From an uncultured Desulfosoma sp. (GTDB lineage Bacteria; Desulfobacterota; Syntrophobacteria; Syntrophobacterales; DSM-9756): a DNA stretch of 55,679 nt. The notes below the pieces were generated by a model. The model was not told the DNA's origin and searched no databases. It saw only the letters and a list, made by a program, of their open reading frames with translations. Shown here in pieces: positions 4,326 to 54,073 of the stretch. The first letter of the stretch is position 1. Every line of letters starts with the position of its first letter. Made by a program: the position numbers and the translations under genes. The stretch is from NCBI GenBank assembly GCA_937960435.1, contig CALGPN010000033.1, forward strand, positions 1 through 55,679. Reading direction: 5' to 3'.

Positions 4326-5402
4326 GTGAGTGTGCCCGTCATTCGTAAAACGATTCCAAGCCCGACGTCCGGTGCGGTCGGCCCGGGAAGCCATGCCCCC
4401 ACGATCGTGCGCTCCATGGGGCAGCGACTGTTCGAAAAGGTGCTCCAAGGGGAAGGTGAGGGATCCCTGGGGGGAAGTCGGGTGCCGGAGGAAATGGCCC
4501 TTTTGACCGGCGCTTCTCAGGAGGTGAACGGCGTTCGGGAGCGATCCGCCGTCCGCAACGCCGACCCGGCGGCGCTTCAGGCCATGATCTCGGCGGCGTA
4601 CATCAAAGCGTCCGCCTTGGGTTCCGGGGCGTCGCCATGGAAAGGATCGAGTGTGTTGGGGGCTTCCCTGCGCAGTGGAATGGTCGCGGCGCCGGCAGGA
4701 GCTTCCGCATTGGATGCGGTTTCCTCGGAAGGTTCCGGGTTCGGGGCGGCGGCCGTTTCCCCTGAGGACGGTTTGGGGCGGCTGGCGGCCCGATTCGAAT
4801 CGGGAGCCGCCGGGGTGGAAGCCATAGGCTACGATCCCGCCGGTGGCACGTCTTACGGGATGTATCAGATAGCGTCTCGAACGGGTACCATGGCTCGCTT
4901 CCTGGATTTTTTGGAGCTGCATGAGCCTCGCTGGGCGGCGCGTCTGAGAGCGGCGGGTCCTGCGAATACGGGGAGCACCGGAGGGGCCATGCCGAAGGTG
5001 TGGCGCAGCCTGGCCAAGGAAGACCCGGAACGTTTCGCCGCCTTGCAGCAGGCCTTCGTCCGCATGACTCACTATGAACCCGCGCGGCAGGCGGTGCAAG
5101 AGGCGACGGGCGTGGACGTGGACCGCACGTCTCGGGCGCTACAAGAAGTGCTGTGGAGCGCGGCGGTGCAGCACGGGCCGGGTCGAGCGGCGGAGATGTT
5201 TATTCGGGCGGTGAAAGAACAGGGCCGGGTCGGCGGGGCTCTGAACGAAGCGGCTCTCATTCGAAGCATTTACAAAAATCGCAGTCGATCCACCCAAGGG
5301 CTTGAAGGCCCTCTGCGGGAGGCTCTTTTGCGTCGTTTCTGGGAAGAACAGGGGATGGCGCTGGCCATGCTGCAAGAAGTCGGGAAAGATCCCGTGGCGT
5401 AG
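4326..5402 (+). CDS. Putative peptidoglycan hydrolase with a lysozyme/chitosanase-like domain
   Basis: 358 aa, starting at GTG behind AGGAGG. Residues 1-150 are low-complexity, rich in Gly, Ala and Ser, and look like a linker. From about 150 the protein resembles the lysozyme-like C-terminal part of VgrG-related and phage-tail-associated proteins: RFESGAAGVEAIGYD, then GGTSYGMYQIASRTGTM, a conserved Asn-Thr-Gly segment, and HYEPARQAV. Glu158 is the likely catalytic acid and Asp170 a second candidate, by analogy with soluble lytic enzymes. There is no signal peptide, so export would need a dedicated route such as flagellar export, a type VI spike or a phage-like device. No gene for any of these lies nearby. 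The fold assignment is from memory of related sequences; the cellular role is unknown. Confidence 0.6.
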   Translation: MSVPVIRKTIPSPTSGAVGPGSHAPTIVRSMGQRLFEKVLQGEGEGSLGGSRVPEEMALLTGASQEVNGVRERSAVRNADPAALQAMISAAYIKASALGSGASPWKGSSVLGASLRSGMVAAPAGASALDAVSSEGSGFGAAAVSPEDGLGRLAARFESGAAGVEAIGYDPAGGTSYGMYQIASRTGTMARFLDFLELHEPRWAARLRAAGPANTGSTGGAMPKVWRSLAKEDPERFAALQQAFVRMTHYEPARQAVQEATGVDVDRTSRALQEVLWSAAVQHGPGRAAEMFIRAVKEQGRVGGALNEAALIRSIYKNRSRSTQGLEGPLREALLRRFWEEQGMALAMLQEVGKDPVA

Positions 5403-5538
5403 CCGAAACGGTGAACCTTTCCATGGAGGCTGCCGCTTTCCCCTAGGGAAGCTCAAGGGGTGGCCCGTTCATGGGTGGAGGGCCCCGACGGGCTACGGGG
5501 TGGCCGCTCACCCGGTGCCGCTCATGAATGCCGTTGCT

Positions 5539-5560
5539 GGCCCGGGGGGTGCCCCGGGCC
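5539..5560. terminator. Strong GC hairpin between convergent genes
   Basis: GGCCCGGGG (5539-5547) pairs perfectly with CCCCGGGCC (5552-5560) across a GGTG loop. There is no T tract on either side, so it may stop transcription weakly or act as an RNA 3' end. It lies between the converging lysozyme-like gene and acetoacetyl-CoA synthetase. Confidence 0.45.
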
Positions 5561-5582
5561 GAAACGTTTAGGGGTTTCGTCC

Positions 5583-7535
<1,953 letters not shown>

Positions 7536-7750
7536 GAAAGCCTCCGTTTTCCATGAATTTCGTCAATCCCCAGATGCCCCCACGTCCTTCCATCCGCATG
7601 CCATCGGCTGAGAAGGCCGAGCGTCCGTAGAGACTGAGGCAACGATCACGAGAAGACGGGATGCGACGGCCACGAATAGAAGAGTGCGATCATGTTAGCA
7701 GGTTTTGGATGTGAACAAAAGTTTAAAATATGCAAACTTCTCTGGAAGCT

Positions 7751-8101
7751 TCACAGTTCCGGGGCTCCCGCCGGGATGAGGCACACAATCCGCAAAGGCT
7801 CGTCGGAGGTGTTCCGGAATTGGTGTTCTTCATTGGGGGGGATGAACACGGCGTCTCCCTGGGCGATGGGGACCCATCGGCCGTCCGTGAAGGCGGCGCC
7901 GCGCCCTTCGTGGACGAAGATCTCGTGTTCCCAATCGTGGGCATGGCGGGGGGTGTGGCCGCCGGGGTTGATTTCGAAGAGTCGCATACAGAACCGATGG
8001 GCGCCGTCTTTGGCGCCGATCAGAACGCGGCCCGTGACGCCTCGAGCGGCGTCGTTATCGAAGAAGGTGCCGGGAATGTCCTTGTAGGATTGGATTTTCA
8101 T
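7751..8101 (-). CDS. Single-domain cupin protein
   Basis: 116 aa, a small conserved beta-barrel. Cupin motif 1 is GGHTPRHAHDWEHEIFVHEG, with two His and a Glu as the expected metal ligands, and motif 2 is FIPPNEEHQFRN, with the third His. All metal ligands are present, so a metal-dependent function such as an isomerase, a dioxygenase or a ligand sensor is possible; the substrate cannot be inferred. The gene precedes acetoacetyl-CoA synthetase on the same strand, which may hint at a link but is not proof. Upstream it faces the repeat array at 8129-8370. Confidence 0.82.
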   Translation of the reverse strand: MKIQSYKDIPGTFFDNDAARGVTGRVLIGAKDGAHRFCMRLFEINPGGHTPRHAHDWEHEIFVHEGRGAAFTDGRWVPIAQGDAVFIPPNEEHQFRNTSDEPLRIVCLIPAGAPEL

Positions 8102-8128
8102 GATTAAGACTCCCTGGAATGGTTGAAG

Positions 8129-8370
8129 GTTGACGCCTTCAGGTCATCGACCCTGTAGGAGCCGGCTTGCCGGCGATTTCACCTCCTTGCGTTGGGTGAG
8201 GGTTGTCTCTTTCAACTCATCGACCCTGTAGGAGCCGGCTTGCCGGCGATCTTTCCTCTTTGCAGCGGGTGAGGGTTGTCTCTTTCAACTCATCGACCCG
8301 TCGCAGGAGGAGCCGGCTTGCCGGCGATCTTGCGTCCTTGCAACGGGTGAACGTTGACGCTTCAGGTCGG
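8129..8370. repeat. 73-bp tandem repeat array containing three REP-type palindromes
   Basis: Three copies of a GTTG(A/T)CxC...TTCA..TCATCGACCC... unit begin at 8129, 8202 and 8275, and a truncated fourth begins at 8353. The spacings are 73, 73 and 78 bp. Each full unit carries the palindrome GAGCCGGCTTGCCGGCGAT (ends at 8177, 8250 and 8328), preceded by GTAG in the first two copies. The flanking parts of each unit are conserved too (CCTTGC..GGGTGA), so this is a tandem duplication of a REP-bearing segment and not a CRISPR array. It lies between the divergent cupin and TIM-barrel genes. Confidence 0.9.
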
Positions 8371-14246: not shown

Positions 14247-14348
14247 CACCCCCGCGGGGGGGGTGACGGGGAAGGGGATCGCCGGCAAGCCGGCTCCTAC
14301 AGAGCGGGCGCAAGGCCGTAGGTTGGGGTGAGCGAAGCGAACCCCAAC
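14247..14348. repeat. REP-type palindromes at a convergent gene junction
   Basis: Three elements lie in the 298-bp gap between the alkaline phosphatase and the kinase fusion, which converge here. A CACCCCC/GGGGGTG hairpin stands at about 14247-14265. One REP1 palindrome (minus orientation; core GCCGGCAAGCCGGC) is at 14278-14300. One REP2 element is at 14318-14348: GTAG, then GTTGGGGT (14322-14329) and ACCCCAAC (14341-14348) around GAGCGAAGCGA. No gene is seen between them. Confidence 0.85.
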
Positions 14349-19896: not shown

Positions 19897-20385
19897 TCTT
19901 CGCTGAGCCGGTCCCGTCTCCGATGGTTTTGAGGCATTGAAGACATCCTCACAAGCTTATCGCCTCCCGTAACCCCCGTAGGTTGGGGTGAGCGAAGCGA
20001 ACCCCAACACCCAAAGGTCCTGACCGTCTAACCCGAAGCGCTCGCAACAGATCCCGACATCCCCCGCCGATCGATGCTTTGGCGTGGGGCTTACGGAATT
20101 CCCCCCGGACCGTTCAGACATTCCGACATCCCTAACCGGTTTGGCAGGGGGGCGGACACGCGGCCCCGCCCCTGCGACTTCGGCGCTCCAACGTTTTTGG
20201 CCCAAGGACTGATGGCCCGGATCTTTTGCCCACCCCAATCACCGTCCCCCGTGCGACCGAAGATGGGAGGGCCCGCCTGGCGGAGCGCCATACCTGTCTT
20301 CGCCTCCAAGTCTTGATGGGATTTTTGAAGACTAGGCCTTGGGGGAGGGCGGCTTGAAATTGAATCGTCGGCTGGTGTATGCGAC
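19897..20385. other. Intergenic region between the hybrid kinase and nusB, with one REP2 element
   Basis: 489 bases with no supported gene; open frames here lack family resemblance and start signals. It holds one REP2 palindrome at 19978-20008: GTTGGGGT (19982-19989) and ACCCCAAC (20001-20008). It forms the convergent 3' ends of the kinase gene and the long rib/nusB operon. No clear U-tailed terminator was found. Confidence 0.6.
19978..20008 (+). repeat. REP2 palindromic repeat
   Basis: Same sequence and orientation as the copy at 14318-14348: GTAG, GTTGGGGT, an 11-nt GAGCGAAGCGA centre, ACCCCAAC. It lies at a convergent gene junction. Confidence 0.85.
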
Positions 20386-20829
20386 CTAGAGTTTTCCCGC
20401 CTCGGTTTCGTTTTGAGCCGAGAAGGCGGGATTGTCATGGTAAATTTTGTCCAAAACGCCGTTGATAAACGCCCCGGAATCCTGGGATCCGAACCGCTTG
20501 GCCAGTTCAATAGCTTCGTTGATGGAGACTCGCGGGGGGATATCATCCCGGTAGAGCATTTCGTATAGGGCGATGCGCAGGATGTTTCGATCCACCGGGG
20601 ACATGCGATCGAGGCGCCAATGTTGGGATGCGGCCGCCAAATGCCGGTCGATGTCCTTTTGGTGGGCCCAGACGCCGTCCACGAGAATTTTGGCAAAAGT
20701 TCGAGGCTCTGTGGGCAGTTCGAAACACTCACATGCCAGCTCGAAGGCGCGATCCGGAGCCATGCGGTTGAGGTCCATCTGGTAGAGAACCTGAAGGGCC
20801 ATTTCTCGGGCTTGTCGACGCGTTCCCAT
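20386..20829 (-). CDS. nusB: Transcription antitermination protein NusB
   Basis: 147 aa, the normal length. It starts [19 protein letters not shown], the conserved arginine-rich helix that binds boxA RNA, and continues with the all-helical NusB core through [14 protein letters not shown] and [15 protein letters not shown]. NusB with NusE (S10) promotes antitermination on rRNA operons. It follows ribH after 7 bp, the standard ribH-nusB arrangement, and is the last gene of the long minus-strand operon. Confidence 0.96.
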
Positions 20830-20836
20830 AAAACCT

Positions 20837-21298
20837 TTACATGCTTTTCAGGAGATTGGCCATCTCCACCGCCGCCATGGCGGCGTCGAAACCCTTGTTG
20901 CCCGCTTTGGATCCCGCCCGTTCGATGGCCTGTTCCAGCGTGTCCGTCGTGAGCACCCCGAAGGTGACGGGCACCGAACTTTCCAAGCTGACCGTCGCAA
21001 TCCCTTTGGCCACCTCATTGGCCACGTAATCGAAATGGGGCGTAGCCCCGCGAATGACGGCCCCCAAACAAATGACGGCGTCATAGCGGCCGGTTTCGGC
21101 AAGTTTTTTAGCGGCCAGGGGAATCTCGTAGGCTCCGGGCACACGAAACACGTGGATCCGATCTTCCTCGGCGCCTGTCCTTTTCAAGGCGTCCAAAGCG
21201 CCTCCCAAGAGCCGCTCGCAGATGAAGTCGTTGAATCGGCTGACCACGATGCCGAACGTGAGACCCTCGGAACGCAGATGGCCTTCGTACACTTTCAT
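20837..21298 (-). CDS. ribH: 6,7-dimethyl-8-ribityllumazine synthase
   Basis: 153 aa. It joins 5-amino-6-ribitylaminouracil with 3,4-dihydroxy-2-butanone 4-phosphate, the penultimate riboflavin step, and usually forms icosahedral shells. Diagnostic segments are [31 protein letters not shown] and [17 protein letters not shown], the latter with the catalytic His; the GNKGFDAA motif is near the C-terminus. Its ATG overlaps the ribBA stop by four bases (ATGA), so the two are translationally coupled. The longer open frame upstream is inside ribBA. Confidence 0.97.
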
Positions 21299-22524
21299 GC
21301 TGGACTCCCTTCCGACGCGAAGCACTGGAGAACGTGACCCATTTTTCGGCATTTCGTTTTCAGGTAATGGACATTGCATTCGTTGGGCTCGACCTCGATG
21401 GGCACTCTTTCCGTCACGGTGATGCCGTAGCCTTGAAGGCCGACGATCTTCTTGGGGTTATTGGTCATGAGGCGCATTTTGCGAACCCCTAGGTCCACAA
21501 GGATTTGGGCCCCGATCCCGTAATCTCGAAGGTCCGCCTTAAAACCCAAAGCCTCGTTGGCTTCCACGGTATCATAGCCCTGTTCCTGAAGGGCATAGGC
21601 TTTGATTTTGTTGACAAGCCCGATACCGCGCCCTTCGTGGTTCCTCATGTAGAGGAGCACCCCCCGCCCTTCGCGATCGATTTGGCGCATGGCCGCCCGC
21701 AGCTGATCGCCGCAGTCGCACCGAAGAGAACCAAAGACGTCTCCCGTCAGACATTCGGAATGCACCCGCACCAAGACCTCGTCGTTGGGGCCGAAGGAAC
21801 CCTTGACCAAGGCCAAGTGCGTGAACTCATCGATGGCGTTCCGGTAGGCGATGACCCGAAAATCTTGACCGTATTTGCTGGGAAGTTGGGCTTCTGCCAC
21901 GCGCTGGACGAAACTTTCGGTCCGCATGCGGTATTCGATAAGATCCGCAATGGTCACAATCTTGAGGTTGTGTTCGGCGGCGAATTTTTCCAAGTCCGGC
22001 ATGCGGGCCATGGTCCCGTCATCTTTCATGATTTCGCAGATGACCCCTGCGGGTTTCAATCCGGCGAGCCGGGCCAGGTCCACGGAACCTTCTGTCTGCC
22101 CCGTGCGGACCAAAACGCCGCCCTTTTTCGCCCGAAGCGGAAAAACATGGCCCGGGCTTACCAAATCTTCAGGTTTGGCGTCATCGGCGACGGCGGTGAG
22201 GATCGTGTGGGCTCGGTCGGCCGCGCTGATCCCCGTGGTCACGCCCGTTCGGGCCTCGATGGAAACGGTGAAAGCGGTCCCGAAGGATGATTTGTTGTGT
22301 TGGACCATCATGGGCAGTTGCAGGCGGTCGACCCATTCGGGGGTCAGAGCCAAGCAGATCAGGCCCCGACCGTATTTGGCCATGAAATTGATGGCTTCCG
22401 GAGTCACCTTTTCGGCGGCGATACAGAGATCCCCCTCGTTTTCGCGGTCCTCGTCATCGACCAGAATCACCATTTTGCCCTGACGGATGTCTTCCAAAGC
22501 CTCAGGAATGGTTGCCAACGGCAT
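21295..22524 (-). CDS. ribBA: Bifunctional DHBP synthase / GTP cyclohydrolase II
   Basis: 409 aa. Residues 1-200 are RibB (makes 3,4-dihydroxy-2-butanone 4-phosphate), with the acidic loop [10 protein letters not shown] and the [12 protein letters not shown] motif. Residues 205-409 are RibA (GTP cyclohydrolase II), with zinc ligands Cys258, Cys269 and Cys271 in [20 protein letters not shown] and the conserved [11 protein letters not shown]. All catalytic residues appear present in both halves. GGGAG lies upstream of the ATG at 22524. ribE is 169 bp upstream; I see no riboswitch in that gap. Confidence 0.97.
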
Positions 22525-22693
22525 GTGAAAAACTCCCTTCGTCGGTTCCGGGGCGACCGTGCCGGTCCGTCCCCTCACCAGGATAAGCGATCGGGAAGAC
22601 GGTTCCTTCCCTGACGTGCAGCCCTGCACGGACAAGGCCTCACGACGCGTGACCTATATCATGGAGGCTGTGGAGACTCAAGGCGGCAGTGGT

Positions 22694-23362
22694 TCAAAGA
22701 AAGCCGTGGCGAAGAAGAAACGCTGTGTCGATGCCGCGAGATTTCTCCATGGGATCGCCCGACGAAGGTTTTGTCCAGGCTCGGAGTATGTTTTCCACAT
22801 ACTTGGCGATGATGTCCGTTTCAATGTTGACGCGCTCCCCTACCGTGAGCAGGCTGAGGGTGGTGACGTCCGCCGTATGGGGGATGACGTTCACGTCGAA
22901 ACGGCCCGGAGCGCACCCGTTGACCGTGAGGCTCACGCCGTTGACGGCGATGGATCCCTTGGCGACGATGAAAGGCGAAAGCTCTTCCGGCACGGTGAAA
23001 TAAAAGCGCCACGAACGCCCTTCCATCTTCTTTTGGACAAGGGTGCCCACGCCGTCTACGTGGCCTTGCATGAGGTGGCCTCCAAGGCGATCGCCCAGAC
23101 GCAAGGCCCGTTCCAAATTGACGAGGGATCCCGGGTTCTTGGATCCCAGGGTGGTTTTTGTGAGTGTTTCTGCCGAGACATCCACGGAAAAAACGGGACC
23201 GTCGAAGGCCACCACGGTGAGGCAGGCCCCATCGACGGCGACGCTTTCCCCAAGAGTCATGTCGGCGAAGGGCCGCTCCGATCGGAGGGTCATCCGTGCG
23301 TCGACGCCGTGGCGCTCCGTGCGAAGCACGGTTCCTCGGCATTCCACAAGTCCGGTGAACAT
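22694..23362 (-). CDS. ribE: Riboflavin synthase alpha chain
   Basis: 222 aa, made of two similar halves of about 95 residues, as is normal. It starts with the hallmark MFTGLVECRGTV; the repeat of the fold begins at GHLMQGHVDGVGTL. SVAVDGACLTVV and SIAVNGVSLTVN are the paired motifs of the two halves. It dismutates two molecules of dimethylribityllumazine to riboflavin. GAGG precedes the ATG. It is separated from ribD upstream by a 551-bp segment full of repeats, in contrast to the tight packing of the rest of the operon. Confidence 0.97.
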   Translation of the reverse strand: MFTGLVECRGTVLRTERHGVDARMTLRSERPFADMTLGESVAVDGACLTVVAFDGPVFSVDVSAETLTKTTLGSKNPGSLVNLERALRLGDRLGGHLMQGHVDGVGTLVQKKMEGRSWRFYFTVPEELSPFIVAKGSIAVNGVSLTVNGCAPGRFDVNVIPHTADVTTLSLLTVGERVNIETDIIAKYVENILRAWTKPSSGDPMEKSRGIDTAFLLRHGFL

Positions 23363-23520
23363 CGGCAAACCTCCGTGTGTGCCCCGCCGCACCCTCGAAT
23401 TAGGGGCGGAGTGATGTGTTGGCCCCAAAACAACGACCCGTCGGCAGGGGAACCGCGTCCGCCCGGAAGCCGCCCGACGGGGTCGGGTGGGAGCGCAATG
23501 GCAGGAACCCAGAGCAAGGT

Positions 23521-23864
23521 GTTGGGGTTCGCTGCGCTCACCCCAACCTACGGCCTACGGCCTTGCACGCGCCTTGTAGGAGCCGGCTTGCCGGCGATTT
23601 CACCCATCACCCACCCGTAGGAGCCGGCTTGCCGGCGATCATCCTCCCCGGGCCTCCCCGCGAGGGGTTGGCGGGGGCGTAGCGGCAGGAAGCCGGGTCA
23701 AAGCGTTGGGGTTCGCTGCGCTCACCCCAACCTACGGCCGACGGCCTTGCACGCGCCTTGTAGGAGCCGGCTTGCCGGCGATTTCACCCGCCATCCACCG
23801 GTAGGAGCCGGCTTGCCGGCGATTTCACCCGCCATCCACCCGTAGGAGCCGGCTTGCCGGCGAT
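23521..23864. repeat. Duplicated REP2-REP1 composite block inside the rib operon
   Basis: Seven palindromes lie in 345 bp between ribD and ribE. REP2 (minus orientation; GTTGGGGT...ACCCCAACCTAC) is at 23521-23551 and 23705-23735. REP1 (GAGCCGGCTTGCCGGCGAT preceded by GTAG) is at 23576-23598, 23617-23639, 23760-23782, 23801-23823 and 23842-23864. The order REP2, 24-bp linker (ACGGCCTTGCACGCGCCTT), REP1, REP1 occurs twice, so a whole composite unit has been duplicated; the second unit has one extra REP1. All REP1 copies point the same way. Confidence 0.92.
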
Positions 23865-23913
23865 CATCCTCAGGGACGTGCGTGGCGATTCCGGGAGGCG
23901 GGTGCCGTCCCAT

Positions 23914-25050
23914 TCAATAGAGATCCCGGCGGAAGCGACCGGAAATCAAAAAATCTTCGCCAAACCGCCGTATCTCACAATCAAACACAGGCACCGCATC
24001 ACCCATGGAGAACCTCGGGACTCCCTGAAACATGGGCACCCCAAGGGAATCCCCTAGAATCTTCGGCGCGTAGAAGAAAAGGAAATCGTCGGCCAAGGCC
24101 TCATCGAGAAACGCGCCGTGGATGCGCGCCCCGCCTTCCACGAGGACGCTGGTGATGGATCTTCGGCCCAGTTCGTCGAGAAGCCCCCTTAAATCGAGGC
24201 CGTGTTCCTTCGCCATCCCCAAGGGGAGCATGTCCACCCCATGGGACGCGAACCGTTCACGGACTTCTTTAGAAACAGCTTCGGCGCAGGCCAGAAGGAC
24301 AGGGGTTTGCCGGGCCGTCTTGACCAACTGCGACGCCAAAGGCAGCCGTCCATGGGTATCGAGGACAATACGAAGGGGCTGGGGAGTCTTCTTCCGGTCC
24401 AACCGGGCGGTCAACAAGGGGTCGTCGGCCAAAGCGGTGCCGATACCTACAAGGACGGCATCCACGGCGGCCCGCAGCTCATGGACGAGGCGGCGCGATC
24501 TTTCGTTGGTGACCCATCGGGATTCGCCCGTGCGAGCGCCCATGCGGCCGTCCAAGGTGGCGGCGCACTTGAGCGTCACGTAGGGTCGGCCCTGAGTGAC
24601 CCATTTGATAAACGGTTGATTCAGGATTCGGCATTCCCTTTCCAGGACGCCGACAGTGACGGCAATGCCCGCCTGGCGCAGCCGATCCGCCCCGCCTCCC
24701 GTTACTTTTGGGTTGGGGTCGGCCATACCGATGACAACGCGGCTGATCCCTGCTTGGATAACAGCTTCCGTGCATGGCGGCGTTCGGCCGTGATGATTGC
24801 AAGGTTCCAAGGAGACGTACAATGTGGCCCCGCGGGCCGATTCCCCGGCTCGGCGCAGGGCGTGCACTTCGGCATGAGGTCCGCCGACGCGCTCATGAAA
24901 ACCTTCCCCCACCACGCGACCGTCCCGGACAACCACTGCGCCCACCATGGGATTCGGGCTTGTTCGGCCGGCGCCCCGTTTGGCCAAACGAAGGGCCCGC
25001 CTCATGAACTGTTCGTCTTCGGGTGTCCACGCGGTCATGGGATCTTTCAA
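23914..25050 (-). CDS. ribD: Bifunctional riboflavin biosynthesis deaminase/reductase
   Basis: 378 aa. The N-terminal deaminase domain (about 12-150) has its zinc site in GPHAEVHAL (His59, Glu61) and LEPCNHHGRTPPC (Cys84, Cys93). The C-terminal reductase (about 155-378) has VTLKCAATLDGRMG and the VEGGARIHGAFL motif for NADPH and substrate. It performs the second and third steps from GTP to riboflavin. The TTG at 25050 has GAGGA at good spacing; the ATG at 25038 is an alternative with poorer spacing. It follows glyA after 123 bp. Confidence 0.96.
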   Translation of the reverse strand: MKDPMTAWTPEDEQFMRRALRLAKRGAGRTSPNPMVGAVVVRDGRVVGEGFHERVGGPHAEVHALRRAGESARGATLYVSLEPCNHHGRTPPCTEAVIQAGISRVVIGMADPNPKVTGGGADRLRQAGIAVTVGVLERECRILNQPFIKWVTQGRPYVTLKCAATLDGRMGARTGESRWVTNERSRRLVHELRAAVDAVLVGIGTALADDPLLTARLDRKKTPQPLRIVLDTHGRLPLASQLVKTARQTPVLLACAEAVSKEVRERFASHGVDMLPLGMAKEHGLDLRGLLDELGRRSITSVLVEGGARIHGAFLDEALADDFLFFYAPKILGDSLGVPMFQGVPRFSMGDAVPVFDCEIRRFGEDFLISGRFRRDLY

Positions 25051-29085: not shown

Positions 29086-30264
29086 CTAGCCTCGCTTAAT
29101 GCGTTCGATAAAAGCGGGGACGAATTCGAAAAGGTCGGCCACCACCCCGCACGTGGCCACATCGAAGATGGGTGCCTCCGGGTCTTTGTTGACGGCCACG
29201 ATGATCTTGGACCCTTGCATTCCCACGATGTGCTGGATCGCCCCCGAAATGCCGATGGCCATGTAAAGGGTGGGGGAAACCGTCTGGCCCGTCTGCCCCA
29301 CCTGGTGGGAGACCGGGGCCCAGCCTTCTTCCACGGCACTGCGGGAAGCGCCCACAGCGCCTGTCAAAAGACGCGCCAACTCCTCCACCATGCGAAAGTT
29401 TTCCGCCTTTTGCAAGCCCCGCCCTCCGGAGACGATCACTTCGGCTTCCGTCAGCTTGGCCGTCGTGTCTTCCTCGGCAATGACCTCCAAGACCTGCACC
29501 CGGGTCCGGAAAACATCTTCGGGCAGGGAAACCCGCTCCACGCGACCGTTGCGGGGCTGGATTTCCGCGCGCATGACCCGAGGGCGCACGGTGGCCATCT
29601 GAGGGCGGCCGTGGGGGCAGACGATGGTGGCCATGACGTTGCCGCCGAAAGCCGGGCGCGTTTGCAACAGCAATCCCTCGTCGTTGATGTCCAGTTCCGT
29701 GCAGTCGGCCGTCAGGCCCGTTTGGAGCATGGCGGCGACGCGGGGGATGAAGGATCGGCCCATGGAGGTGGCGCCTGCCAGAAGGATTTCCGGCTTTTTG
29801 TCCCGAACCAATTCCACCAGGCACCGGCTGTAGGCTTCGTCCGTAAAATGCCTGAGAGCGGGGTGGTCCACCACGTAGACCACGTCGGCCCCGTAGCGCA
29901 GCAGGTCCTCGGCGGCTTCCCCCAGATTCTCCCCAAGAAGGACGGCGGCGCATTCCACGCCTTTCTTGTCCGCAAGGCGCCGTGCGGCACTCAAAAGTTC
30001 GTAGCTCACCCGATGAACGGACCCCCGCCGCCATTCCGCAAAAGCCCAGACGCCGCGATACGCCGCTGCGTCGGTGACGGCTCCGGTGCCCACTTCCGGC
30101 AGGCGGATCGCCTGAAATTCACACGTGTCCACGCACATGCCGCACAGCGTGCAATCGTCCGAAACCACCGCATGGGTTTCGGGCACCGAGATGGCCCCGA
30201 CGGGGCACACATCCTGGCAGACGCCGCAGGCCGTGCACTTGTCCAAATCGATCAGGGCTTTCAT
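29086..30264 (-). CDS. etfA: Electron-transfer flavoprotein alpha subunit with N-terminal 2x[4Fe-4S] ferredoxin domain
   Basis: 392 aa, longer than a plain EtfA (about 320) because residues 1-60 form a bacterial ferredoxin domain. Its cluster ligands are Cys10/13/16/20 ([12 protein letters not shown]) and Cys38/41/44/48 ([11 protein letters not shown]). The EtfA part follows from about 67, with the FAD-binding C-terminal domain [34 protein letters not shown] and GISGAIQH. The iron-sulfur domain lets the protein exchange electrons with ferredoxins or iron-sulfur oxidoreductases. It overlaps etfB by four bases and follows an acyl-CoA dehydrogenase, the expected partner. Confidence 0.95.
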
Positions 30265-45832: not shown

Positions 45833-45863
45833 GTTGGGGTTCGCTGCGCTCACCCCAACCTAC
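45833..45863 (-). repeat. REP2 palindromic repeat
   Basis: GTTGGGGT (45833-45840) and ACCCCAAC (45852-45859) followed by CTAC. Identical to the copies inside the rib operon and in the same (minus) orientation. Confidence 0.85.
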
Positions 45864-46075
45864 GGGTGATGAGGGGGGTTGTTGGGGCACCCCTTGGGGG
45901 TGCCCGTATCCCTTTTCTCCTTGACGAATCTCCCCCAAGGCCAATGTCCTGAGGTGTCCTCGATAGACGCGTGCAAGGCATACGGTCAGACGGGACCGGA
46001 ACCCCGCGATGTCCATCGATCGGAACTGCTGTAAAGATCTCTCGCGTTCGTTCTTCGCTGCGGCTTTCCTTTTTT

Positions 46076-53973: not shown

Positions 53974-54073
53974 GGGCGGGCACAAGGCCCGCCCCTACGG
54001 GACTTGCGGCAATGCGGCATGGGATCAGCGGATATCCCCGGAACTTCCGGGCGGGCACAAGGCCCGCCCCTAC
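53974..54073. repeat. REP3: two direct copies of a GC-rich palindrome
   Basis: GGGCGGGCACAAGGCCCGCC followed by CCTAC occurs at 53974-53998 and 54049-54073, 75 bp apart and identical. Each forms a GGGCGGGC/GCCCGCCC-like hairpin. A degenerate third copy may follow at about 54077-54096. Related repeats are widespread in Gram-negative and environmental genomes, by recollection. Confidence 0.85.

Follow-up and report, generated by a model that had tools for sequence, protein, structure and literature searches.

In this study, we report that the spacer between the vitamin B2 (riboflavin) genes ribD and ribE of a sulfate-reducer-like, Desulfacinum-family bacterium carries a block of seven palindromes which, judged from its sequence, is a cluster of GTAG-tagged REPs, ordinary dispersed repeats of a known kind. 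The explanation that we favour, and hold to be probable, is that a dispersed hybrid REP cluster landed in this spacer in one lineage and was duplicated there in tandem, with at most a modest effect on the RNA of ribD and ribE. Coordinates refer to the window, i.e. the whole 55.7 kb stretch of DNA that was analysed, and those of the main features are collected in Table 1.

Architecture and identity of the repeat block

The block occupies 344 bp (23521-23864) between the stop codon of ribD (23914-23916) and the start of ribE (23361). It consists of two REP2 and five REP1 copies, each of which is an exact match to its consensus, and no REP match was obtained in 20 Markov-shuffled windows. These results agree with a preliminary description of this DNA, which had placed seven palindromes of two families at this position and had taken them for REPs that separate ribD from ribE. 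The order across the block on the plus strand is REP2, REP1, REP1, REP2, REP1, REP1, REP1. REP2 and the adjoining REP1 stand tail-to-tail with their GTAG ends inward, and tandem head-to-tail REP1 copies follow. The two tandem units begin 184 bp apart, and the REP2-linker-REP1 cores of both are identical at 77 of 78 positions, while only 39 of the preceding 63 bp agree. The composite order and its linker are therefore duplicated, as had been described, but not as a 3+3 arrangement, since unit 2 contains a third REP1, an extra step of 41 bp that gives 3+4 elements.

Table 1 Coordinates of the repeats, the putative promoter and the riboflavin genes in the window
Feature	Position	Strand	Remarks
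nusB	20386-20829		after ribH
ribH	20837-21298		after ribBA
ribBA	21295-22525	-	first gene after the putative internal promoter
Putative extended -10 promoter, ribE-ribBA spacer	22653-22681	-	TTGAGT - 17 nt - TATAGG, with TGA just before TATAGG; conserved
ribE (riboflavin synthase alpha chain)	22694-23361	-	downstream neighbour; own GGAGG ribosome-binding site
Tandem unit 1	23458-23641	none	flank, REP2, linker, REP1, REP1
REP2 copy 1	23521-23552	-	exact; GTAG tag on minus strand; CGTAGGTTGGGGTGAGCGCAGCGAACCCCAAC
REP1 copy 1	23576-23598	+	exact; tail-to-tail with REP2 copy 1; GTAGGAGCCGGCTTGCCGGCGAT
REP1 copy 2	23617-23639	+	exact
Tandem unit 2	23642-23871	none	order of unit 1 plus one 41-bp REP1 step
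REP2 copy 2	23705-23736	-	exact
REP1 copy 3	23760-23782	+	exact; tail-to-tail with REP2 copy 2
REP1 copy 4	23801-23823	+	exact
REP1 copy 5	23842-23864	+	extra copy of unit 2; of all hairpins the closest to ribD, whose stop codon is 49 nt away
ribD (deaminase/reductase)	23914-25050 (start approximate)	-	upstream neighbour; 65% identical to Desulfacinum RibD

Read from its GTAG end, REP1 is GTAG-GA-GCCGGC-TT-GCCGGC-GAT, and all five copies in the block begin with GTAG. GTAG-1 REPs, the Pseudomonas type of Di Nocera et al. (2013; PMC3733652), are defined by a terminal GTAG, two extra unpaired bases, a stem of 5-13 bp, a short loop and a 3-bp tail. REP1 has the unpaired GTAG, two unpaired bases (GA), a 6-bp GC stem, a short loop of 2 nt and the 3-bp tail GAT, and also shares with GTAG-1 REPs the many copies and the clusters; it differs from them in its host, a Desulfacinum-family bacterium in whose assembly a REP transposase was not found. 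REP2, which reads GTAG-GTTGGGGT-GA-GC-GCA-GC-GA-ACCCCAAC from its GTAG end, has a layout like that of GTAG-3 REPs, the E. coli/Coxiella type (PMC3733652), with GTAG, an 8-bp stem, GA/GA non-complementary dinucleotides and a short loop flanked by GC; its stem sequence is, however, its own, and it is assigned by layout only. GTAG REPs have been described as forming hybrid dimers, and also tandem clusters that include stretches of adjoining DNA (PMC3733652). As in the hybrid REP dimers and BIME-like clusters of Stenotrophomonas and E. coli, two REP types here form a recurrent composite arranged in tandem with flanking DNA, but the composite differs in its order, a tail-to-tail REP2-REP1 pair and then REP1 copies repeated head-to-tail in 41-bp steps.

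Distribution of the repeats in the genome and in relatives

When up to 3 mismatches were allowed, 52 REP1 and 126 REP2 copies were counted in the 3.0 Mb assembly, and a reversed-pattern control gave none; both families are dispersed, multicopy and mostly intergenic, as is typical of GTAG-tagged REPs. The REP2-linker-REP1(-REP1) composite is found again at four further sites, namely on contig C9 (REP2-REP1-REP1), twice on contig C32, and at 14278-14348 of the window (a REP2-REP1 pair), each with a similar linker and unrelated flanks.

Gene contexts were determined by applying a codon-model gene caller to the window and to 60 stretches surrounding REP matches; this home-made caller may err in individual cases but gives clear overall proportions. 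Of 75 REP clusters, 11 lie at contig edges, and the 64 classifiable ones are found in co-directional (36), convergent (17) and divergent (11) spacers. Of the other REP sites in the window, the one at 8155-8328 is divergent, those at 14278-14348 and 19977-20008 are convergent, and the one at 45833-45864 is co-directional. The earlier view that these repeats elsewhere sit at convergent ends, and that the ribD-ribE position is exceptional, did not hold on either point, since the REPs of this genome are found most often in co-directional spacers. Such spacers are likewise a usual site in REP-rich genomes, where co-directional and convergent spacers are preferred (PMC3733652).

Some repeats deserve separate mention. 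A REP2 pair at L152:7112-7218 lies within a long called ORF (4962-8336) and may be either an intragenic REP or a gene-call error. At L147:2084-3471 (G000:C21), dense arrays of seven alternating REP1 copies flank one short gene. A third GTAG-tagged palindrome family, of the GTAGGGGCGGGCNTTANGCCCGCC type, is represented in the window at 53975-53998 and 54050-54073 (one mismatch per copy) and has 62 copies in the own genome, 287 in G004 and 150 in G007.

The search for a REP transposase of the Y1 tyrosine type (PF01797) gave no match in the own assembly, which is 95% complete. In G004, G005 and G007, 15 Y1 loci were examined, none of which had REP1 beside the gene; the L185 locus has two degenerate REP1 copies more than 1 kb away. 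A REPIN/RAYT system, in which the transposase is flanked by these REPs, was thus seen neither in the own assembly nor at the examined Y1 loci. Numerous REP2 clusters were located at the ends of G000 contigs (e.g. C2:146607-146639, C57:5-29 and C10:93534-93558), and the assembly appears to be broken at REP clusters; since these are so often at contig ends, a REP transposase may be missing from it.

The nearest named relatives are Desulfacinum hydrothermale and D. infernum. The same-genus genomes G001 and G002, with ribD-ribE gaps of 206 bp and 55 bp respectively, contain no REP1 or REP2 copy, and the block is therefore specific to its own lineage. REP1 also occurs in G004 and G007, and is abundant, with 175 copies, in G005. 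In G005, the 73-bp ribD-ribE spacer is made up mostly of two REP1 variants, and only a few nt separate the ribD stop codon from the first hairpin; the corresponding spacer of G004 (D. infernum) contains a GTAG-flanked palindrome of which this genome has 104 copies, and the spacer of G007 a TGGGAGCGCGGGCGTCCCGCCC hairpin with 40 copies there. The ribD-ribE spacer thus bears dispersed palindromes of different families or subtypes in four of the seven family genomes and lacks the searched families in the other three, a count which is biased, as some families were first recognised in this very spacer, and from which no probability of recurrence is claimed. A precise empty site was not recognisable by aligning the relatives' spacers, which are too diverged. 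A further dispersed repeat family is present between glyA and ribD in both G004 and G007, and the G007 spacer also contains the G004-type GTAG-flanked palindrome. From these sequences, both the glyA-ribD and the ribD-ribE gap look permissive for repeats, and the idea of ribD-ribE as a unique hotspot is weakened by this further family in glyA-ribD of G004 and G007.

The riboflavin operon and a conserved sequence behind ribE

The block interrupts an operon of the order (gene at 29086-30264)-fabG-fabF-rpiB-glyA-ribD-ribE-ribBA-ribH-nusB, which is conserved in the family. This operon had been called otherwise tightly packed, which is only partly true, given gaps of 123 bp between glyA and ribD and of 169 bp between ribE and ribBA. 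No above-threshold Rfam match to an FMN riboswitch or another cis-element was found in the window, and a permissive Rfam scan yielded only one chance-level match, outside the ribD-ribE spacer.

In all seven family genomes, the ribE-ribBA spacer (129-169 bp in most, 313 bp in G002) contains a TTG hexamer, 17 nt ending in TGN, and then TATAGG. The pattern TTGNNN-N14-16-TGNTATANN has a single match in the window, which is the one on the minus strand in this spacer; it has one match in each of the regions of six relatives that cover the spacer, and three order-level relatives likewise have it behind ribE, in the equivalent position. None of the searched repeat families was present in the ribE-ribBA spacer of any of the seven family genomes. 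The conserved sequence is probably an extended -10 promoter for ribBA-ribH-nusB. With such a promoter, transcription of these three genes would probably restart downstream, so that any effect of the block would fall mainly on ribD and ribE, and only the supply of ribE could depend strongly on read-through. The proposal that the block uncouples ribD from ribE had overlooked this element, which would confine any uncoupling mainly to ribE.

In G004 and G007 (L286 and L282), the leader right behind the putative ribE-ribBA promoter has the sequence CCCGACCCGCCGACCGGGTCGGGATGCGTTTTTT, in which a T-run comes after a hairpin; this is possibly an attenuator in the rib leader. The own window gave no Rfam riboswitch match at this place.

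Effect on RNA, origin and significance

Since seven GC-rich hairpins follow ribD directly, one might suspect an array of intrinsic terminators that ends the ribD transcript, and termination was one of the effects considered in the preliminary description. The predicted folding energies are -9 kcal/mol per REP1 hairpin and -15 per REP2; the whole block, however, folds no better than shuffles (z -1.0), no terminator-like match was found within it on the transcribed strand, and on that strand no hairpin is followed by a U-tract, the sole TTTT in the ribD-ribE spacer lying ~70 nt beyond the last hairpin. Because a hairpin with an immediate U-tract, as in a Rho-independent terminator, does not occur here, the hairpins on their own are unlikely to terminate transcription, and a dedicated terminator array is hardly credible.

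Effects of another kind are suggested by E. coli. REPs of the malE-malF type, which lie between co-transcribed genes, can reportedly protect upstream RNA, as Newbury et al. are said to have found in 1987. The block is likewise situated between co-transcribed genes, with the difference that here a conserved promoter stands one gene further downstream; a protective effect of the block would follow by analogy only. E. coli REPs have also been proposed to stall ribosomes at the stop codon within a limited distance, and by this comparison the 49 nt from the ribD stop codon to the nearest hairpin are probably too far. Protective and attenuating roles and altered RNA decay have been described for E. 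coli REPs (PMC12306157), as have Rho-dependent polarity and a shielding of upstream 3' ends from exonucleases (PMC12306157, PMC2817692). By the same reasoning, the block may protect the 3' end of ribD, or may cause Rho-dependent polarity on ribE, the ribD-ribE spacer giving an untranslated stretch of ~550 nt.

The composite is found in many unrelated spacers, ribE has its own ribosome-binding site, and same-genus relatives manage without the block, all of which would suit an insertion of the origin proposed above that has no measurable effect on the RNA of ribD or ribE. Yet E. coli REPs in the equivalent position alter RNA decay (PMC12306157), and so long an untranslated stretch invites Rho; we regard complete neutrality as quite possible, while leaning against it. 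Alternatively, the hairpins may be a selected regulatory device, acquired repeatedly, which splits ribD from the ribE part and sets the stoichiometry, with the promoter restarting ribBA-ribH-nusB. The different palindromes in the ribD-ribE spacers of the family, the closeness of the first G005 hairpin to the stop codon and the conservation of the downstream promoter beyond the family are consistent with this. On the other hand, glyA-ribD collects repeats too, and the absence of the searched families from ribD-ribE in three genomes and the bias of the count also argue against such a device, which we consider unlikely. When ~80 other repeat sites of G004 and G005, a small sample, were compared with those of the own genome, only one other spacer was common on both flanks. 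To the wider idea that different dispersed hairpin families have been recruited repeatedly to ribD-ribE, with the promoter behind ribE, and that mobile repeats serve as interchangeable regulators of stoichiometry, we give little credence.

In the favoured explanation, lineage-specific landing and tandem duplication, a non-autonomous hybrid unit (one REP2 and two REP1, tail-to-tail) would have been inserted into the ribD-ribE spacer after the split from the same-genus relatives and would then have been duplicated in tandem, with one further 41-bp step of REP1; the copies, their recurrence and their absence in relatives were observed, and from them we infer this order of events. The insertion would have been tolerated because the spacer carries nothing conserved. 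The block would be co-transcribed with ribD and is predicted to form GC-rich hairpins, which at most may shield the 3' end of the glyA/ribD RNA from exonucleases, and ribE may be moderately lowered, perhaps via Rho acting on the untranslated stretch. The genes ribBA-ribH-nusB would probably be buffered by the conserved sequence behind ribE, if it is active as a promoter. Points against this explanation are the lack of a PF01797 match in the own assembly, which leaves mobility without a visible agent (although, with 11 clusters at contig edges, one could have fallen into assembly gaps), and the divergence of the relatives' spacers, in which no precise empty site is recognisable.

The useful additions of this analysis are the recurrent hybrid composite, the comparison of spacers among relatives and the conserved, putative internal promoter. 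REPs of the GTAG type are documented in a Desulfacinum-family genome, together with a recurrent hybrid of REP2 and REP1, and the riboflavin operon offers a natural comparison, in which the ribD-side spacers of one conserved operon gather different repeats in different species and the promoter-bearing spacer gathers none of them. On this basis, the use or mere tolerance of REPs within operons can be tested directly across species.
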